A stretch of 64,000 bases of DNA, taken from positions 124,001 through 188,000 of the forward strand of contig CALUVV010000002.1 of the NCBI GenBank assembly GCA_944324305.1, written 5' to 3'. The position numbers and the translations under genes are program-made. This DNA is from Candidatus Gastranaerophilales bacterium. GTDB lineage: Bacteria > Cyanobacteriota > Vampirovibrionia > Gastranaerophilales > Gastranaerophilaceae. Each line of letters starts with the position of its first letter. Positions within the stretch are counted from its first letter, which is position 1. The notes beneath the pieces are model-generated. The model ran no database searches. It saw only the letters and a list, made by a program, of their open reading frames with translations, and was not told where the DNA came from. Of this stretch, positions 20,310 to 51,951 are shown one piece after another.

Positions 20310-20966
20310 ATGCATTTCAAAGTTAACGCAATAATTCCCGCAGGCGGCACATCTTCGCGCTTTGGAAACAAAAACAAACTCTTAGAAAAAATTTATGATA
20401 AAGAAGTTATAAGATACACTGTAGAGGCTTTTGAAAACTCAAATGTTGATGAAGTTATAATATGTGCAAACATAAATATTATTGATGAATTAAAAGAAAT
20501 CTTTAAAAACAGCCCGAAAGTACGAATTATTGAAGGCGGCGCAACACGTCAGGAATCAGTTTTTAACGGACTGAATGCATCCGAATGCGATTACGTACTT
20601 ATCCATGACGGAGCAAGACCTATGATTTCAACCGATCTTGTTAACACCGCAATAGAAGAAGTAAAAACAAAAAAAGCACTTACCGTTGCCACTAAAACAA
20701 TTGATACAATAAAAGAAGTTATAGACGGAAAAATTATAAGAACAATTGACCGTGCCAAATTATATAACACGCAGACACCGCAGGCTTTTGAATATAATTT
20801 GATAAAAGAGGCTCATAAAAAGCTTTACGGTCAAAACTTCACAGATGATGCCGGAATGCTTGAAGAGCTCGGGGAAACGGTTTATATACTAAACGGAAGC
20901 TACAAAAATATTAAAATAACAACTCAAAACGATATAGATATTGCAAAAATTTATCTTGCCCCCTAA
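20310..20966 (+). CDS. ispD: 2-C-methyl-D-erythritol 4-phosphate cytidylyltransferase
   Basis: Third step of the non-mevalonate isoprenoid pathway, joining CMP to methylerythritol phosphate. 218 residues with the nucleotide loop IIPAGGTSSRFG and its Lys (NKNKLLEKI), plus IHDGARPMIS and TPQAF in the C-terminal part. AAGGAG is nine bases before ATG 20310. Its stop overlaps the end of a convergent prepilin gene. Cytosolic. Confidence 0.96.
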   Translation: MHFKVNAIIPAGGTSSRFGNKNKLLEKIYDKEVIRYTVEAFENSNVDEVIICANINIIDELKEIFKNSPKVRIIEGGATRQESVFNGLNASECDYVLIHDGARPMISTDLVNTAIEEVKTKKALTVATKTIDTIKEVIDGKIIRTIDRAKLYNTQTPQAFEYNLIKEAHKKLYGQNFTDDAGMLEELGETVYILNGSYKNIKITTQNDIDIAKIYLAP

Positions 20967-21634
20967 AAATGTACAGGATAATCTTTATTTATTTTCCAGC
21001 CGTCGTACTCTATTAATGCGGCACAATAAGCTTTGTAACTTTTAGCACATCCGTAGCCGTTAGCGGCAGAATTAATAAGTTCGTCTCTTGTGCGTGAAAT
21101 CTCGCTGCCATAAGTTATTACCGAATTTTTAGAACAACGGAATAAAAATGTATTTTTACCGTCTAACGGATATGAATATATTTTGTTACCGCTCTTTTTC
21201 AAACGTTCTTGACAAGACTTAAAATCAACGCAGTATACAATATGCAGCCACTCAATCCCATTGGATGAAGTCTCAGACGGATTATAAAGCCCAAAACCCG
21301 AGCCGTCAGCAAGAGTAATCAAAATTCCGTCAGAGGCTTTCAAAATATCGTTACTGATAAAATATTTTGCCATATAAGTATTCCAAAAACTATATAAGGA
21401 TTCCGCATCCAAATAGTTTGCCCCCTGCCAATCCCCGGCATAACCGTTTTCCGCTTCCGCAAATTTTAGTGCCTGATTAATAGTTGTATAAAATTTACGC
21501 ATTCTTGCTGTAACTGCCTGCTTTCTGTGATTAGCAATCAATACAGGTAGTGTCATCGCGGCAACAATACCGATTATTCCAAGTGTAATCAAAACTTCCG
21601 CCAGTGTAAAAGCACATTTCCTGCTTGAAATCAT
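20963..21634 (-). CDS. type IV prepilin-like protein (module 1)
   Basis: Pseudopilin of 223 residues with a class III leader of nine residues ending in Ala, then the mature N-terminus FTLAEVLITLGIIGIVAAMT (Glu at +5) and a hydrophobic assembly helix. The globular part ends with a two-cysteine region and the tail YCAALIEYDGWKINKDYP, nearly shared with the module 2 pilin. It would need prepilin peptidase and an assembly ATPase, neither in this window. AAAGGG before the ATG supports the start. It is divergent from an XRE regulator. Confidence 0.9.
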   Translation of the reverse strand: MISSRKCAFTLAEVLITLGIIGIVAAMTLPVLIANHRKQAVTARMRKFYTTINQALKFAEAENGYAGDWQGANYLDAESLYSFWNTYMAKYFISNDILKASDGILITLADGSGFGLYNPSETSSNGIEWLHIVYCVDFKSCQERLKKSGNKIYSYPLDGKNTFLFRCSKNSVITYGSEISRTRDELINSAANGYGCAKSYKAYCAALIEYDGWKINKDYPVHF

Positions 21635-37587: not shown

Positions 37588-38295
37588 ATGACAAGAAAGA
37601 AAACAATCACCGGCTTCACTTTAGCAGAAGTTTTGATTACACTTGGTATTATCGGAGTAGTTGCGGCTTTAACAATCCCTGCGCTTATTGCTAATCATAA
37701 AAAAACAGCAGTTGAAACAAGATTGAAAAAATTCTACTCAGTAATGAACCAAGCTATCACTCAATCAGAACTCGAAAATGGGGATAAAAGCACCTGGAAT
37801 ATTGATATGAGTGTTGACAAAGATAATAATGACGTAAGTGATAATTTAGAATGGTATAACAAATATTTAGCTAAATATTTAAAAACAACAAAAGTAGAAA
37901 AAAATCAGGATAATTATGTTGCTGCATATTTTAGTGACGGAAGTATTGTAGTAATTAGACGCGGGGGAAGTACATACAACTTTTTCCCTGACGGAAAAAA
38001 CTACGAAAAATTAAACTTAAATGACATTTTTAATCAGCAGAGTGATCCTAATAATAAAATATATGGAAAAACCTGTTTTCTCTTTGCCTTTTATCCTAAT
38101 TCGGATGACAAAAAGTGGAAATATCATAAAAATAAAGGATTGGAGCCGTACAAATGGATAAACGGTTCAAATAGCGATATAGATTGGACAGACACTACAT
38201 ACGGATGCAGTAAAAATGGAAGTAAAATCTATTGTGCAGCATTAATACAAAAAAATGGATGGAAAATTCCGAAAGATTACCCGTTAAGATTTTAA
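37588..38295 (+). CDS. type IV prepilin-like protein (module 2)
   Basis: 235-residue pseudopilin with a nine-residue class III leader ending Gly, then FTLAEVLITLGIIGVVAALT and IPALIANHKKTAVETRL, the assembly helix. Cysteines near the end (YGCSKNG, YCAALI) and the tail GWKIPKDYPLRF closely match the module 1 pilin, showing recent common origin. GAGG and TATAAT precede the ATG. Its stop overlaps the lipA stop by four bases on the other strand. Confidence 0.92.
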   Translation: MTRKKTITGFTLAEVLITLGIIGVVAALTIPALIANHKKTAVETRLKKFYSVMNQAITQSELENGDKSTWNIDMSVDKDNNDVSDNLEWYNKYLAKYLKTTKVEKNQDNYVAAYFSDGSIVVIRRGGSTYNFFPDGKNYEKLNLNDIFNQQSDPNNKIYGKTCFLFAFYPNSDDKKWKYHKNKGLEPYKWINGSNSDIDWTDTTYGCSKNGSKIYCAALIQKNGWKIPKDYPLRF

Positions 38296-46668: not shown

Positions 46669-46753
46669 GGAGAGGTGTCCGAGTGGTTTAAGGTGCGGAT
46701 CTCGAAAGTCTGTGTACAGAAATGTACCGTGGGTTCGAATCCCACCCTCTCCG
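46669..46753 (+). tRNA. tRNA-Ser (CGA anticodon)
   Basis: 85 bases with a long variable arm, as in serine tRNAs. Acceptor GGAGAGG pairs with CCTCTCC, the anticodon loop CTCGAAA has CGA (reads TCG), and the T arm is GGTTCGAATCC. Discriminator G, no encoded CCA. Its last 11 bases recur downstream. Confidence 0.95.
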
Positions 46754-46928
46754 ATTTTACAACAAAACATAAGAAGTTCGTGGGATGAGAACCACAAGGC
46801 AAAGCCTTGTCAGGTTCGAGCGTGAACGAGCTGAGGGCGAAGACTTGACGGCAAAATGGCAAAGCCATTGAAGACGGCAATCGTAGACCCGTTAAACGCG
46901 AGTGAACAAGAAAACCACACCCTCTCCG
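46754..46928. repeat. structured insert bounded by a repeat of the tRNA-Ser 3' end
   Basis: CACCCTCTCCG occurs at the tRNA end (46743-46753) and again at 46918-46928, which is the pattern left by an integrative element or a duplicated tRNA end. The DNA between is visibly richer in G+C than its surroundings. It holds two stem-loops with identical AAA loops: ACAAGGC/GCCTTGT (46794-46810, extendable by GAACC/GGTTC) and AATGGC/GCCATT (46855-46869). No coding potential is convincing. Confidence 0.55.
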
Positions 46929-46951
46929 TTTTTATAATTAAGAAGGATGTT

Positions 46952-47920
46952 ATGTTAAAAGATTTATTCGATAAAAAAGCGTGCTTTAAGCTTGTCTGCG
47001 GCGCAGGTAATGAAGATGCAGCAGAAGTTGAAAAACTTGTGACAATTTATTCCCTTGCAGGCTGTAATTTCTTTGATCTTTGCGCAAAACCCGAAATTGT
47101 CGACGCCGCAAAAAGAGGGTTGGAAAGAGCAGGAATAAAAGAAGACAGATATTTATGCGTAAGTGTAGGTATTGACGGCGATCCGCATATTACAAAGGCC
47201 GTAATTGATCAGACAAAATGCGTTAAATGCGGAAAATGTAAATTAATCTGCCCGCATGATGCCATAATCGAACTTGATAAATACAAAGTAAAAAAAGAAA
47301 GATGTATAGGATGCATGCAGTGTGCAAATAATTGCCCGAAACAGGCAATTGAAATGGTAAGCCAATTACAGGATTACAAAGAAGTTCTCCCGCAACTTAT
47401 AGAAAAAGGAATTGATTGTATTGAATTCCATGCAATTTCAACCGATGAAAAAGATGTTATGGATAAGTGGTTGCAAATAAACGATTTTTTTGACGGAATG
47501 CTTTGCATCTCAATCGACCGCTCGGAACTCGGCGATAAAAAGCTTAAAGAAAGAGTTAAAAAAATGCTTAGTATAAGAGAACCTTATACAACAATTATTC
47601 AGGCAGACGGGATTGCAATGAGCGGAAGTGATGATAAATACGGCACAACTCTTCAAGCAGTTGCAACAGCACAGCTTTTCCAAAATGCAAACTTCCCCGC
47701 ATACATAATGATGTCAGGCGGTACAAATACAAAATCAATTGAGCTTGCACATTCTTGCGGAGTAAAACCTCATTGTCTTGCAGTAGGTTCTTATGCAAGA
47801 AAAATAGTAAAAGAATATCTTACAAACGATAATCTTTTAAATGACCAAAATTTAATCAATGAAGCCGTAAAAATTGCAAAAGACCTTGTTGACACAATTG
47901 TTGGAAAAAACAATGATTAA
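46952..47920 (+). CDS. ldpA: LdpA-family [4Fe-4S] protein
   Basis: 322 residues. N-terminal domain DKKACFKLVCGAGNEDAAEV, a ferredoxin-like pair of [4Fe-4S] sites (about 88-130: CVKCGKCKLICPHDAI and CIGCMQCANNCPKQAI), then an LdpA C-terminal domain with QADGIAMSGSDDKYGTT, MMSGGTNTKS and VGSYARKIV. In Synechococcus, LdpA is a redox-sensitive input component that sets circadian period; no kai genes lie here. Start ATG 46952 has AAGG upstream; a longer frame would run into the tRNA insert. The HAD gene overlaps its end. Confidence 0.85.
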   Translation: MLKDLFDKKACFKLVCGAGNEDAAEVEKLVTIYSLAGCNFFDLCAKPEIVDAAKRGLERAGIKEDRYLCVSVGIDGDPHITKAVIDQTKCVKCGKCKLICPHDAIIELDKYKVKKERCIGCMQCANNCPKQAIEMVSQLQDYKEVLPQLIEKGIDCIEFHAISTDEKDVMDKWLQINDFFDGMLCISIDRSELGDKKLKERVKKMLSIREPYTTIIQADGIAMSGSDDKYGTTLQAVATAQLFQNANFPAYIMMSGGTNTKSIELAHSCGVKPHCLAVGSYARKIVKEYLTNDNLLNDQNLINEAVKIAKDLVDTIVGKNND

Positions 47921-48668
47921 CCTCAAAACAGATAGCTGGGAAATTAAAAACATTGACACAATCCTTTTTGATAAGGACGGAACTTTTATTGACCTGCATT
48001 ACTTCTGGGGAAAAATGACGGAGATGAGAGTTTCGGAAATCATAAAAAGGTTCAATTTGCAAGATACTTTGTTTCCCGTTCTCTGCCTGAAGCTCGGATA
48101 CGATACTTCAAACGGTAAAATGCTGAAAGACGGAATTACGGCAATGTATTCAAGACCTGTAATTATAGAAATCTTTTGCAAAGACCTTAATAACTTAGGA
48201 GTTAGTATTACTGAATTGCAGATTGAAGAAATATTTGACGGGGTAAGCAAAACTTTCTATGAGAATATGTCAGAGTATACAAAACCTATTGAAAACGCGA
48301 TAAATTTCATCAAGCTCGTTAAGTCAAGGGGGATAAAAACAGGAATTGTAACATCAGACGCAGCAGAATCCACACTTTTAACTTTAAAACATTTTTATTG
48401 GGAAAACTTATTTGACGTTGTAATAGGGCGTGAATCTACAAAAGAAACCAAAGAAAGCGGAGTTCCGGTAAAACTTGCACTCGAAAAACTTCAATCAAAC
48501 CCTAAATTTACCGTAATGATTGGAGATGCACCTATGGATTATATTGCGGCAAAAAACGGCGGTGTAGAAAGAACAATACTTGCCGCAACGGGACAAATTG
48601 ATGAGGAAACACTCTGTCAAACTTCCGAATTTACGGTTTCTTCACTTGATAAAATTTCAATTTATTAA
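47913..48668 (+). CDS. HAD-superfamily hydrolase, phosphoglycolate phosphatase-like
   Basis: Phosphatase of 251 residues: motif I LFDKDGTFIDLH (nucleophile Asp and acid Asp), motif II VTSDAAEST, a Lys before motif III, and motif III GDAPMDYIAAKNGG. An alpha-helical cap lies at about 25-100. Its ATG overlaps the ldpA stop by eight bases, so the two are coupled. Substrate unknown. Ends overlapping a convergent nitroreductase gene. Confidence 0.85.
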   Translation: MINLKTDSWEIKNIDTILFDKDGTFIDLHYFWGKMTEMRVSEIIKRFNLQDTLFPVLCLKLGYDTSNGKMLKDGITAMYSRPVIIEIFCKDLNNLGVSITELQIEEIFDGVSKTFYENMSEYTKPIENAINFIKLVKSRGIKTGIVTSDAAESTLLTLKHFYWENLFDVVIGRESTKETKESGVPVKLALEKLQSNPKFTVMIGDAPMDYIAAKNGGVERTILAATGQIDEETLCQTSEFTVSSLDKISIY

Positions 48669-50001: not shown

Positions 50002-50694
50002 TTATTTACATTTTGTTTTCCTGCTCCAGTCTAAGTCATTGCAGTGTAAATAATCCATATTTTCATTAATAAGCACCCACGCTGCACAAGCTTTACCATC
50101 CCCTGAATTTTTATCTTTACAATCATCAGAAAAAGAATATCTTTCCTCTTCTTTAGTCCCGAACGGTATTACTCCGTATTTAGTTATATTAAAAAAGAAA
50201 ACATCCCTTCCTACTTGATTTGGCAGTTTATTACCGTTTATATCAATACTGAATTCTCCGCAAACATTTTTAAGAGCCTGTGTAGTACCTCTCACGTTAT
50301 TACAACTATTTCCTGACGCATATCTTATGATGCTGCCGTCAATAAGTTGTGCATAATATGAACTGTCAGAAAAATAATCATTTTTTCCAAAAGCACTTTC
50401 CATTCCGCCATTCAATGATTTATATTGCATAATGGCACAAGACTTATCACCGGGTTGGCATAACTTAACTGTTTTAAACATAGATACGATATTGTCACCG
50501 CTGTAATCTTCAGGATTTTCAATTTGGTTCAGCCTGATTGCCTGCTCAAGTATTGAGTAAAACTTTTTCAAAGCGACAACAGTTTGTTTTTCTTTATAAT
50601 GTGTAACTAATGAAGGCATTGTCATAGCTGCAACTACACCAATAACTCCCAAAGTTACCAAAACTTCAGCCAGCGTAAATCCATTTTTGCTCAT
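50002..50694 (-). CDS. type IV prepilin-like protein (module 3)
   Basis: 230-residue pseudopilin with a five-residue leader MSKNG then FTLAEVLVTLGVIGVVAAMT and MPSLVTHYKEKQTVVAL. The globular part has several cysteines (QPGDKSCAIM, NSCNNVRG, KACAAWVL), probably paired. GGAGG stands eight bases before ATG 50694, preferred over an upstream in-frame ATG. Divergent from an XRE regulator, with only 69 bases between starts. Confidence 0.92.
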   Translation of the reverse strand: MSKNGFTLAEVLVTLGVIGVVAAMTMPSLVTHYKEKQTVVALKKFYSILEQAIRLNQIENPEDYSGDNIVSMFKTVKLCQPGDKSCAIMQYKSLNGGMESAFGKNDYFSDSSYYAQLIDGSIIRYASGNSCNNVRGTTQALKNVCGEFSIDINGNKLPNQVGRDVFFFNITKYGVIPFGTKEEERYSFSDDCKDKNSGDGKACAAWVLINENMDYLHCNDLDWSRKTKCK

Positions 50695-50729
50695 AATAAT
50701 ATTATCCTCCATCCATTTTATATATACAA

Positions 50730-50764
50730 TACATGTAATATTATACGTTTTACAATTGTATACA
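50730..50764. promoter_or_regulatory. cluster of palindromes between prepilin and XRE gene (module 3)
   Basis: TACATGTA (50730-50737), TACAATTGTA (50751-50760) and TGTATACA (50757-50764) are perfect palindromes. The middle one contains a TACAAT -10, seven bases before the XRE ATG 50764; the last overlaps that ATG. Autorepression is the likely use. Confidence 0.52.
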
Positions 50765-51039
50765 TGCAATACAAAAGCGAAAAAACTTTACATTTAATTA
50801 ATCAACTCGGGAAAATTATTAAATCCAGCAGATTAAAGAAAGATAATATTTCTCTCAATACATTTGCATATGAATATGACCTAAACCCTGGTAATCTCAG
50901 CAGAGTTGAAAACGGTCAAATTGAGCCCAAAATAACAATGCTTTGGCGGATTTCTGAGGCTTTGGGAGTTCCTTTATCGGAGATTATTATACAACTTGAA
51001 AAAGAATTAGGTAAAGACTTTTCAATCACTGACAAATAA
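50764..51039 (+). CDS. XRE-family transcriptional regulator (module 3)
   Basis: 91 residues: N-terminal arm, helix-turn-helix about 15-70 (LGKIIKSSRLKKDNISLNTF, NPGNLSRVENG), then LSEIIIQLEKELG. TACAAT seven bases before the ATG and no Shine-Dalgarno indicate a leaderless message. Divergent from the module 3 prepilin and convergent with the frameshifted prepilin. Confidence 0.88.
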   Translation: MQYKSEKTLHLINQLGKIIKSSRLKKDNISLNTFAYEYDLNPGNLSRVENGQIEPKITMLWRISEALGVPLSEIIIQLEKELGKDFSITDK

Positions 51040-51100: not shown

Positions 51101-51951
51101 TTATTTAGGAAGACATTCCCAATACCCTTTTGAAGCATCATCAGGGCAGACATCATTAATAGCATACCATGCGCAGCCTATCCCGTTTGCTGTTTGTTTG
51201 GAATTTTTTGAACAGGGCTTTCCCATCAAATTATTTATGCCGCCCGAACTTAAATCGCCAAGTTCATCTTCTGTATAATCCTTTATTTTCTTTGCCCCGA
51301 CAAGTTTATCACTTGCATCCTGAACTCTGAATACAAATAAATCATGCCCAAATCTGTTGGGACCTTTTTTACCGTTTATATCTGTCGTAAAACTGATTTG
51401 TCTGCCGTCAATTGAAGTTCCAACTCCTACCATGATGGCTGCTCCGTTAGACAAAATCTTATCAGGAAGATTTAAGCTGAAATCTTTATTATCAGCATAT
51501 ATTTTTATGCTCCTGTCAGAATAAATTGAATAATCATTCATTTTGACGGAAATATTACCTATAACCTTCATACGTTTGTAAAATGCTGCCTCAAACTCAG
51601 CTGCACGCGGGTATATGTTAAGTTCAGGTGAATATTCCGTATAATCTGTAAATAAACTGTCGCTTCCGAGGTCCTGCTTTGTTAATATTAAAGCCTGATA
51701 AATCAAAGAATACATTGATTTAAATTGATTTTCCAATACTTTTTTTCTATGCTCAACAATTAAATTCGGCAAGGTTAAAGCCGCAACAATCCCAATAATT
51801 CCCAGAGTTATCAAAACCTCTGCCAGAGTAAATGCGGGTTTAGGAGCTACAGAATTGCCCCCCCCCCGAATGCTACGCAGGCAGATACCTCAGCACAAAA
51901 GTTGTGAAACTTTTCATGTAACGGCATCTGTTTTGCTTCTGTAGTTTTCAT
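51101..51951 (-). CDS. type IV prepilin-like protein, out of frame at a poly-G tract
   Basis: From ATG 51951 (AAAGGAG upstream, 14 bases after mtnA) the frame runs MKTTEAKQMPLHEKF... to ten G and stops at TAG within a few codons. The prepilin body in another frame reads AFTLAEVLITLGIIGIVAAL and ends CAWYAINDVCPDDAS. With 11 (or 8) G the two join into a 283-residue protein with a 40-plus-residue leader ending Ala. As read the gene is off, unless a sequencing error removed a G. It is last in the ruvC-mtnA operon, with its own terminator. Confidence 0.8.
51858..51867 (-). repeat. poly-G tract (10 G) in the prepilin leader
   Basis: Ten C on the plus strand (G on the coding strand), 84-93 bases after the ATG. 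One more G restores the frame. Confidence 0.92.

Follow-up and report, generated by a model that had tools for sequence, protein, structure and literature searches.

LdpB of a Gastranaerophilales bacterium belongs to a sister clade of cyanobacterial LdpA that occurs in many phyla

The ldpB locus

The window analysed here, a stretch of 64,000 nucleotides from the 2.2 Mb genome of a non-photosynthetic gut bacterium of the Gastranaerophilales (G000, 99.98% complete), carries on its forward strand, at 46952–47920, an open reading frame for a protein of 322 residues. We call this gene ldpB, as it is a new subfamily member of the known LdpA family. Its product matches the Pfam domain LdpA_C (PF12617) with an E-value of 6.5e-20 and 71.9 bits (cut-off 22.2), which places it in the superfamily, and LdpA_Fe-S-bd (PF25160) with 34.0 bits (cut-off 27.6). 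Ahead of LdpA_C it has two Cx2Cx2Cx3C [4Fe-4S] motifs, C90/93/96/100 and C118/121/124/128, and its sequence contains MSGSDDKYGTT and MSGGTN. The first-pass annotation, made from the sequence, had named an LdpA-family protein with iron-sulfur motifs and C-terminal MSGxDxxxGTT and GGTN signatures and had proposed an LdpA_C search as a check; the domain match far above cut-off, the two cluster motifs and both signatures bear it out. Since LdpA_C lies outside the ferredoxin part, a chance match to ferredoxins can be ruled out. A longer ldpB start at 46856 is possible, but is not needed because the homologues in relatives begin at the MLKDL position. dN/dS was 0.035–0.049 in three of the four pairs computed with close relatives and 0.249 in the fourth, against the more distant copy of G020, and ldpB is therefore a real gene under purifying selection.

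The gene that follows (47913–48668, same strand) encodes a HAD phosphatase-like protein of the same family as the HAD of a multi-phylum operon described below, and its ATG at 47913 overlaps the ldpB stop at 47920. Homologues of this HAD (E-value 1e-20) are present in 11 of 58 relatives and adjoin ldpB in each, downstream in eight genomes of the window type and in G020, upstream in G034 and G050. The translational coupling to a HAD phosphatase noted in the first-pass annotation thus agrees both with the start/stop overlap and with a link conserved in all 11 carriers. Most genomes of the window's genus have ldpB without HAD. The window-type pair, with LdpB 77–81% identical, also occurs in three other genera (G216, G303, G187).

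Directly upstream of ldpB lies a tRNA-Ser(CGA) (46669–46753, +), and the order tRNA-Ser(CGA)-ldpB-HAD is shared by further genomes of the genus as well as by a second genus (L270). A 25-nucleotide, 84% copy of the 3' end of this tRNA (46738–46762 versus 46913–46937) is found 175 bp downstream, just before ldpB, and resembles a remnant of integration at the tRNA. In the genus, the usual ldpB copy shares about 55% identity with window LdpB and is flanked on one side by a beta-lactamase-like gene and on the other by an HMGL aldolase with a subsequent large ORF, presumably ClpB-like (G010, G028); the HMGL aldolase adjoins ldpB in G010, G028 and G040. In the part of contig 12 of the window genome that was examined, the HMGL, large ORF and beta-lactamase-like neighbours of the usual site are present and ldpB is absent. 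With the usual site empty and a copy behind tRNA-Ser(CGA), the window ldpB has apparently replaced the usual copy, either through transfer or because duplicates were lost differentially. Elsewhere in the window, four ORFs (20963–21634, 37588–38295, 50002–50769, 51101–51814) have N-termini of the FTLAEVLITLGIIGVVAA type, which we take to be prepilin-like.

Whole-genome profile searches for clock and photosystem families, in which the positive control Synechococcus elongatus matched for KaiA, KaiB, KaiC and Photo_RC alike, detected neither Photo_RC nor KaiA in any of the 58 relatives, including the window genome. KaiB is absent from the window genome and present in two of the 58. The KaiC ATPase family gave partial matches in all 58 genomes, with a strong tandem only in the KaiB genomes G035 and G041; in the window genome the matches are partial (about 51 bits), with no KaiC-like double-domain hit, and such partial matches are presumably RecA/RadA-like. 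The first-pass annotation, which had seen no clock or photosystem genes in the window and had suggested a genome search for kaiA, kaiB and kaiC, therefore holds for the whole genome as far as kai and reaction-centre genes are concerned. Lacking KaiA, KaiB, a KaiC-like double hit and Photo_RC, the genome has no clock or reaction centre for ldpB to serve. A clock role of ldpB here was accordingly rejected, as the genome is without KaiA and KaiB. In G035 and G041, which belong to one genus of the window's order, KaiB is followed by a double-domain KaiC-like protein (L061–L064), without KaiA and without Photo_RC.

Two clades and their distribution

We computed a quick tree of 102 rows, for which 36 of the 88 locus rows, mostly near-duplicates, had been dropped beforehand, and a careful tree of 73 rows, for which 32 rows had been dropped, including long branches flagged in the quick tree. 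The careful tree splits the family into clades A and B with support 100/100. Clade A unites other lineages of the phylum with the families f9, f3 and f4, which belong to the window's class and order, and with photosynthetic Cyanobacteria, whose LdpA sequences form a single group (13 rows, 100/100). Clade B comprises genes from multiple phyla, xenologues of Prochlorococcus and Synechococcus, and the window gene together with most families of its order; the picocyanobacterial and Sericytochromatia rows nest within other phyla. A topology uniting all Gastranaerophilales rows of both clades was rejected (p-AU 2.65e-5).

In domain layout LdpB and LdpA proper agree over their full length (hhalign probability 100, E-value 4.2e-77), and they share the two cluster motifs, the strand-end residues and the predicted barrel. 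They differ in being only about 30% identical, in forming separate clades and in their scores against the NCBIfam equivalog 'circadian clock protein LdpA' (NF045992), where LdpB reaches 148 bits against a cut-off of 450 and two photosynthetic LdpA controls reach 578 and 585. As clade A genes of other lineages also fail this cut-off (145–188 bits), it cannot by itself tell clade A from clade B. The neighbours differ as well, HAD and aldolase genes for LdpB and ycf45 and ndhN for LdpA proper, and the genome of LdpB is without kai genes. The phylogeny suggested in the first-pass annotation thus keeps the gene within the LdpA family, though in clade B. Its identification as cyanobacterial LdpA did not survive: orthology is rejected by the tree (A/B split 100/100, p-AU 2.65e-5) and by gene order, and the gene belongs to a separate clade common to many phyla and archaea.

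LdpA_C of either clade was matched in 54 of 58 relatives of the order, and in a sample spanning the phylum 378 of 386 genomes had a match; among 14 control genomes, Synechococcus elongatus alone matched. Eight phylum genomes without a Pfam match were searched with a clade B profile, and five of them matched beyond the ferredoxin part (G194, G309, G354 and G201; G368 partly), one matched in the ferredoxin region only (G163) and two not at all (G348, G279). Clade A genes with ycf45 adjoining also occur in genomes that tested negative for Photo_RC, among them G036 and G043, and clade A is inherited through the phylum, including non-photosynthetic members of the window's order. The family appears to predate photosynthesis in the phylum, which the first-pass annotation had offered as one of two readings of the presence of the gene; this part stands because clade A occurs in other families of the Gastranaerophilales and in other classes, and not because of the window gene, which alone shows no such inheritance.

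A scan with the clade B alignment against one genome per species yielded 286 relatives, of which 80 were kept. Their hosts include Acidimicrobiales, Microthrix, Chloroflexi, Nitrosomonadales, Omnitrophota, Bacteroidales, Saganbacteria, Syntrophorhabdus, Deltaproteobacteria, Parcubacteria, Anammoxibacter and Methanomicrobia, and five records come from methanogen orders such as Methanomicrobiales. Many of the records are metagenome bins, for which misbinning is possible; Methanocalculus taiwanensis is a named strain. LdpA has been described as unique to Cyanobacteria in the accessible part of one publication (PMC5520375), a statement that, given clade B in many other phyla and in archaea, holds at most for clade A. 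A plasmid search with the Saganbacteria LdpB gave no match. The open-access literature searched contained no paper on LdpA with Melainabacteria or with archaea and horizontal gene transfer, and among the papers listed under Vampirovibrio and similar names none dealt with LdpA.

Several Prochlorococcus and Synechococcus loci carry clade B instead of LdpA proper (L115 and L261 in G201 and G257; L137–L139, L144–L149), and in G201 and G257 this ldpB lies in surface-sugar clusters. All seven B-bearing genomes of these genera (G201, G257, G416–G420) gave a single match, to clade B; the profile used picks up clade A as well, in G147 and G153. Five of the seven assemblies derive from single cells or metagenomes and have no stated completeness, so that the absence of clade A is weaker there. 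B has apparently replaced A in these picocyanobacteria.

Gene neighbourhoods

A first set of neighbourhoods comprised 41 loci, with ldpA located in 38; L108, L111 and L112 were left out since a simple ORF caller found no ldpA there. Within six ORFs of the gene, a Pfam match to an R3H/Spore_III_AA ATPase, presumably Ycf45, was found in 22 of 27 clade A neighbourhoods and in 0 of 11 of clade B, and the ldpA-ycf45 order typical of LdpA proper is absent from the window locus. The pairing of clade A ldpA with a following Ycf45-like ATPase, in some cases also with tmk, is seen in photosynthetic and non-photosynthetic genomes alike (L104, L105, L107, L109, L114, L117–L122 and others). In a few photosynthetic neighbourhoods (L124, L126, L128, L262) the gene is preceded by another that we take to be NdhN-like. 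We found no paper on LdpA with Ycf45 in the open-access literature searched.

The clade B set consisted of 33 of the 80 kept loci together with the window and L115, 35 in all, of which 33 were located and two (L140, L163) left out. HAD is present in 22 of these 33 neighbourhoods; where the record bears no Cyanobacteria label (19 neighbourhoods), HAD is without exception the next gene after ldpB. An HMGL-type aldolase occurs in 18 of the 33 and an HpaI aldolase in 16; the neighbour cluster c1 mixes cytidylyltransferases and glycosyltransferases and its count was left unused. Family scans identified the parts of this operon as a 4-hydroxy-2-oxovalerate-aldolase-like HMGL protein with an MptE-like domain, an HpcH/HpaI aldolase, a KdsB-like 3-deoxy-manno-octulosonate cytidylyltransferase, a TIGR04326 surface carbohydrate protein and a glycosyltransferase. 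RfbH-like genes lie near ldpB in several loci, with none nearby in most. Exceptions are the Synechococcus UW140-type copies, which come after tmk and holB, and the Sericytochromatia copies L148 and L152, which are without HAD, aldolase or sugar partners.

In many phyla, clade B ldpB is thus found among the genes of KdsB/HpaI-type CMP-ulosonate and CDP-dideoxyhexose operons (RfbFGH, TIGR04326), whereas the literature searched described no such operon with an LdpA-family member. The open-access search gave no described operon of the clade B kind either, and LdpA with O-antigen returned, in the parts accessible, only Acinetobacter work on another subject. The window gene groups with the multi-phylum operon genes and has HAD next door, which is its only linked partner at this locus. 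An HpaI aldolase was not found in the window genome at an E-value of 1e-10. G020, of the same genus, has the order RfbF-RfbG-RfbH-ldpB-HAD-HMGL-HpaI-TPP enzyme, and G216 and G410, of other genera, have ldpB-HAD-HMGL-(HpaI)-TPP. On contig 8 of the window genome (L224), away from ldpB, a surface-sugar cluster contains an HMGL-MptE gene beside a PseF-like cytidylyltransferase.

Predicted fold and possible function

In the AlphaFold model (pLDDT 93.9, pTM 0.92), LdpB folds into a (beta-alpha)8 barrel whose third strand is followed by the inserted 2x[4Fe-4S] domain, and the model of a photosynthetic clade A LdpA has the identical layout (pLDDT 89.7). Strands 1–3 (residues 11–72, 46982–47167, +) carry K13, C16, D42 and S71, conserved in both clades. 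They are followed by the inserted ferredoxin domain with its eight cysteines (residues 81–137, 47192–47362, +) and by strands 4–8 with the last helix (residues 156–317, 47417–47902, +; Pfam LdpA_C covers 149–314), which contain E158, H160, Q217 and D219. Three signatures, all on the forward strand, mark the second half of the barrel: QADGIAMSG at the end of strand 6 (residues 217–225, 47600–47626), SGGTN after strand 7 (residues 255–259, 47714–47728), in a position where the fold suggests a phosphate-binding loop, and GSYARK after strand 8 (residues 279–284, 47786–47803).

The nearest solved folds to the LdpB model are aldolase, hexulose-phosphate synthase, ribulose-phosphate epimerase and tryptophan synthase alpha barrels (Z-scores 16–17.7); for the clade A model they are similar barrels and class II aldolase barrels (Z-scores up to 15.7). 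KDPG aldolase, 3-hexulose-6-phosphate synthase, ribulose-5-phosphate 3-epimerase and tryptophan synthase alpha share the barrel over about 200 residues, yet are only 10–16% identical to LdpB, and we know of none among these four phosphate-binding proteins that carries a ferredoxin inserted after strand 3. Nitronate monooxygenase is among the Foldseek hits, and the fold is compatible with FMN-dependent iron-sulfur TIM-barrel oxidoreductases such as PreA; FMN barrels do not head the list of structural neighbours, which does not argue against this. The Pfam scan of LdpB gave no DHO_dh match, and among the matches listed, a sequence search of the PDB covered essentially the ferredoxin part. In the open-access literature searched, no paper connects LdpA to a TIM barrel.

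In 52 sequences drawn from the two clades, the invariant residues are D42, S71, E158, H160, G256 and six of the eight cluster cysteines, while C93, C128, K13, H79, Q217, D219, N259 and R283 are nearly invariant; inside each clade taken separately the set is more complete still. Strand ends are the usual place of the active centre in TIM barrels, and by the predicted strands K13, D42, S71, E158, H160, Q217 and D219 lie in strands or at strand ends, so they would occupy this site in the model. A shared fold gives no function, as TIM barrels serve hundreds of reactions, but the conserved polar set suggests a ligand or substrate site. Taken together, the shared TIM barrel, the inserted ferredoxin and the common set of polar strand-end residues predict a phosphate-binding iron-sulfur enzyme rather than a ferredoxin-like sensor.

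We consider it fairly probable that LdpB is an iron-sulfur TIM-barrel protein working with the HAD phosphatase as the two-gene part of a phosphorylated sugar or keto-acid pathway. For LdpB we infer an enzymatic activity, a phosphate ligand, electron flow and a surface-sugar product. The SGGTN and GSxARK loops of the barrel would hold a phosphorylated ligand, either substrate or FMN, the two [4Fe-4S] clusters of the inserted domain would donate electrons to this ligand or accept them from it, and HAD would remove the phosphate. The fuller pathway of other phyla and of one genome of the same genus would add two pyruvate-type aldolases and nucleotide-sugar enzymes and may feed cell-surface carbohydrate; as the HpaI aldolase is absent from the window genome, the end product here may differ. 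A clade B neighbourhood is in itself no proof of a shared pathway.

The conserved cluster cysteines fit electron transfer but also sensing, and LdpB could be a redox sensor like cyanobacterial LdpA, with clusters that read the redox state and signal to a partner without catalysis. Family membership, with an hhalign probability of 100 between the clades, is in favour of such a sensor, as are reviews that, in their accessible part, describe LdpA as an iron-sulfur redox sensor (PMC13421787). We regard it as improbable, given a genome without KaiA, KaiB or a KaiC-like double hit, the biosynthetic operons of clade B and the conserved polar residues that suggest a ligand or substrate site on the modelled barrel. 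The first-pass annotation looks correct in expecting another role than the clock, with clade B in surface-sugar operons and a genome without kai genes, but its example, sensing of intracellular redox, is not supported over an enzymatic function by these operons and barrel residues. It is likewise improbable that LdpB is an electron donor whose ferredoxin part feeds a partner such as an RfbH-type C3-deoxygenation enzyme, with a barrel that serves solely as a docking site for substrate or partner: RfbH is directly beside ldpB in G020 and RfbH-like genes lie near several other loci, but most loci have no RfbH nearby, the constant neighbours are HAD and aldolases, and the barrel is conserved to the same degree as the cluster motifs.

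A further alternative concerns descent and not function, and can hold together with the iron-sulfur enzyme reading. The window gene might descend vertically from a second LdpA paralogue already present in the ancestor of the phylum, other phyla having received B from Cyanobacteriota. This is in line with the near-universal presence of the family in the order (54 of 58 with LdpA_C, either clade) and with a topology, not rejected (p-AU 0.151), that groups the B genes of the Gastranaerophilales with clade A, apart from those of the operon type, so that clade B may have been transferred either into or out of the phylum. We nevertheless think it rather unlikely, since the genomes examined show no clear coexistence of A and B, though two B copies coexist in five, and since B of picocyanobacteria and Sericytochromatia nests within other phyla.

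Returning to the iron-sulfur enzyme reading, the ancestral role of the LdpA family was probably metabolic. More tentatively, LdpA would at root be no clock protein; as a family of iron-sulfur TIM-barrel enzymes, it would predate oxygenic photosynthesis and extend beyond it. Clade B would make or modify a phosphorylated surface-sugar precursor in bacteria and archaea, and clade A would perform related metabolism across Cyanobacteriota, including non-photosynthetic lines; in the photosynthetic lines, the Kai clock would later have come to read out clade A. B could take the place of A, with Prochlorococcus and Synechococcus lineages as examples. How LdpA acts on CikA is called unknown in the accessible part of a review (PMC13421787). 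A TIM barrel with a polar site, a sister clade in sugar operons and the apparent replacement of A by B in picocyanobacteria offer a testable route to the ligand and reaction of LdpA, and raise the question whether the clock reads a metabolic product of LdpA rather than the redox state directly.
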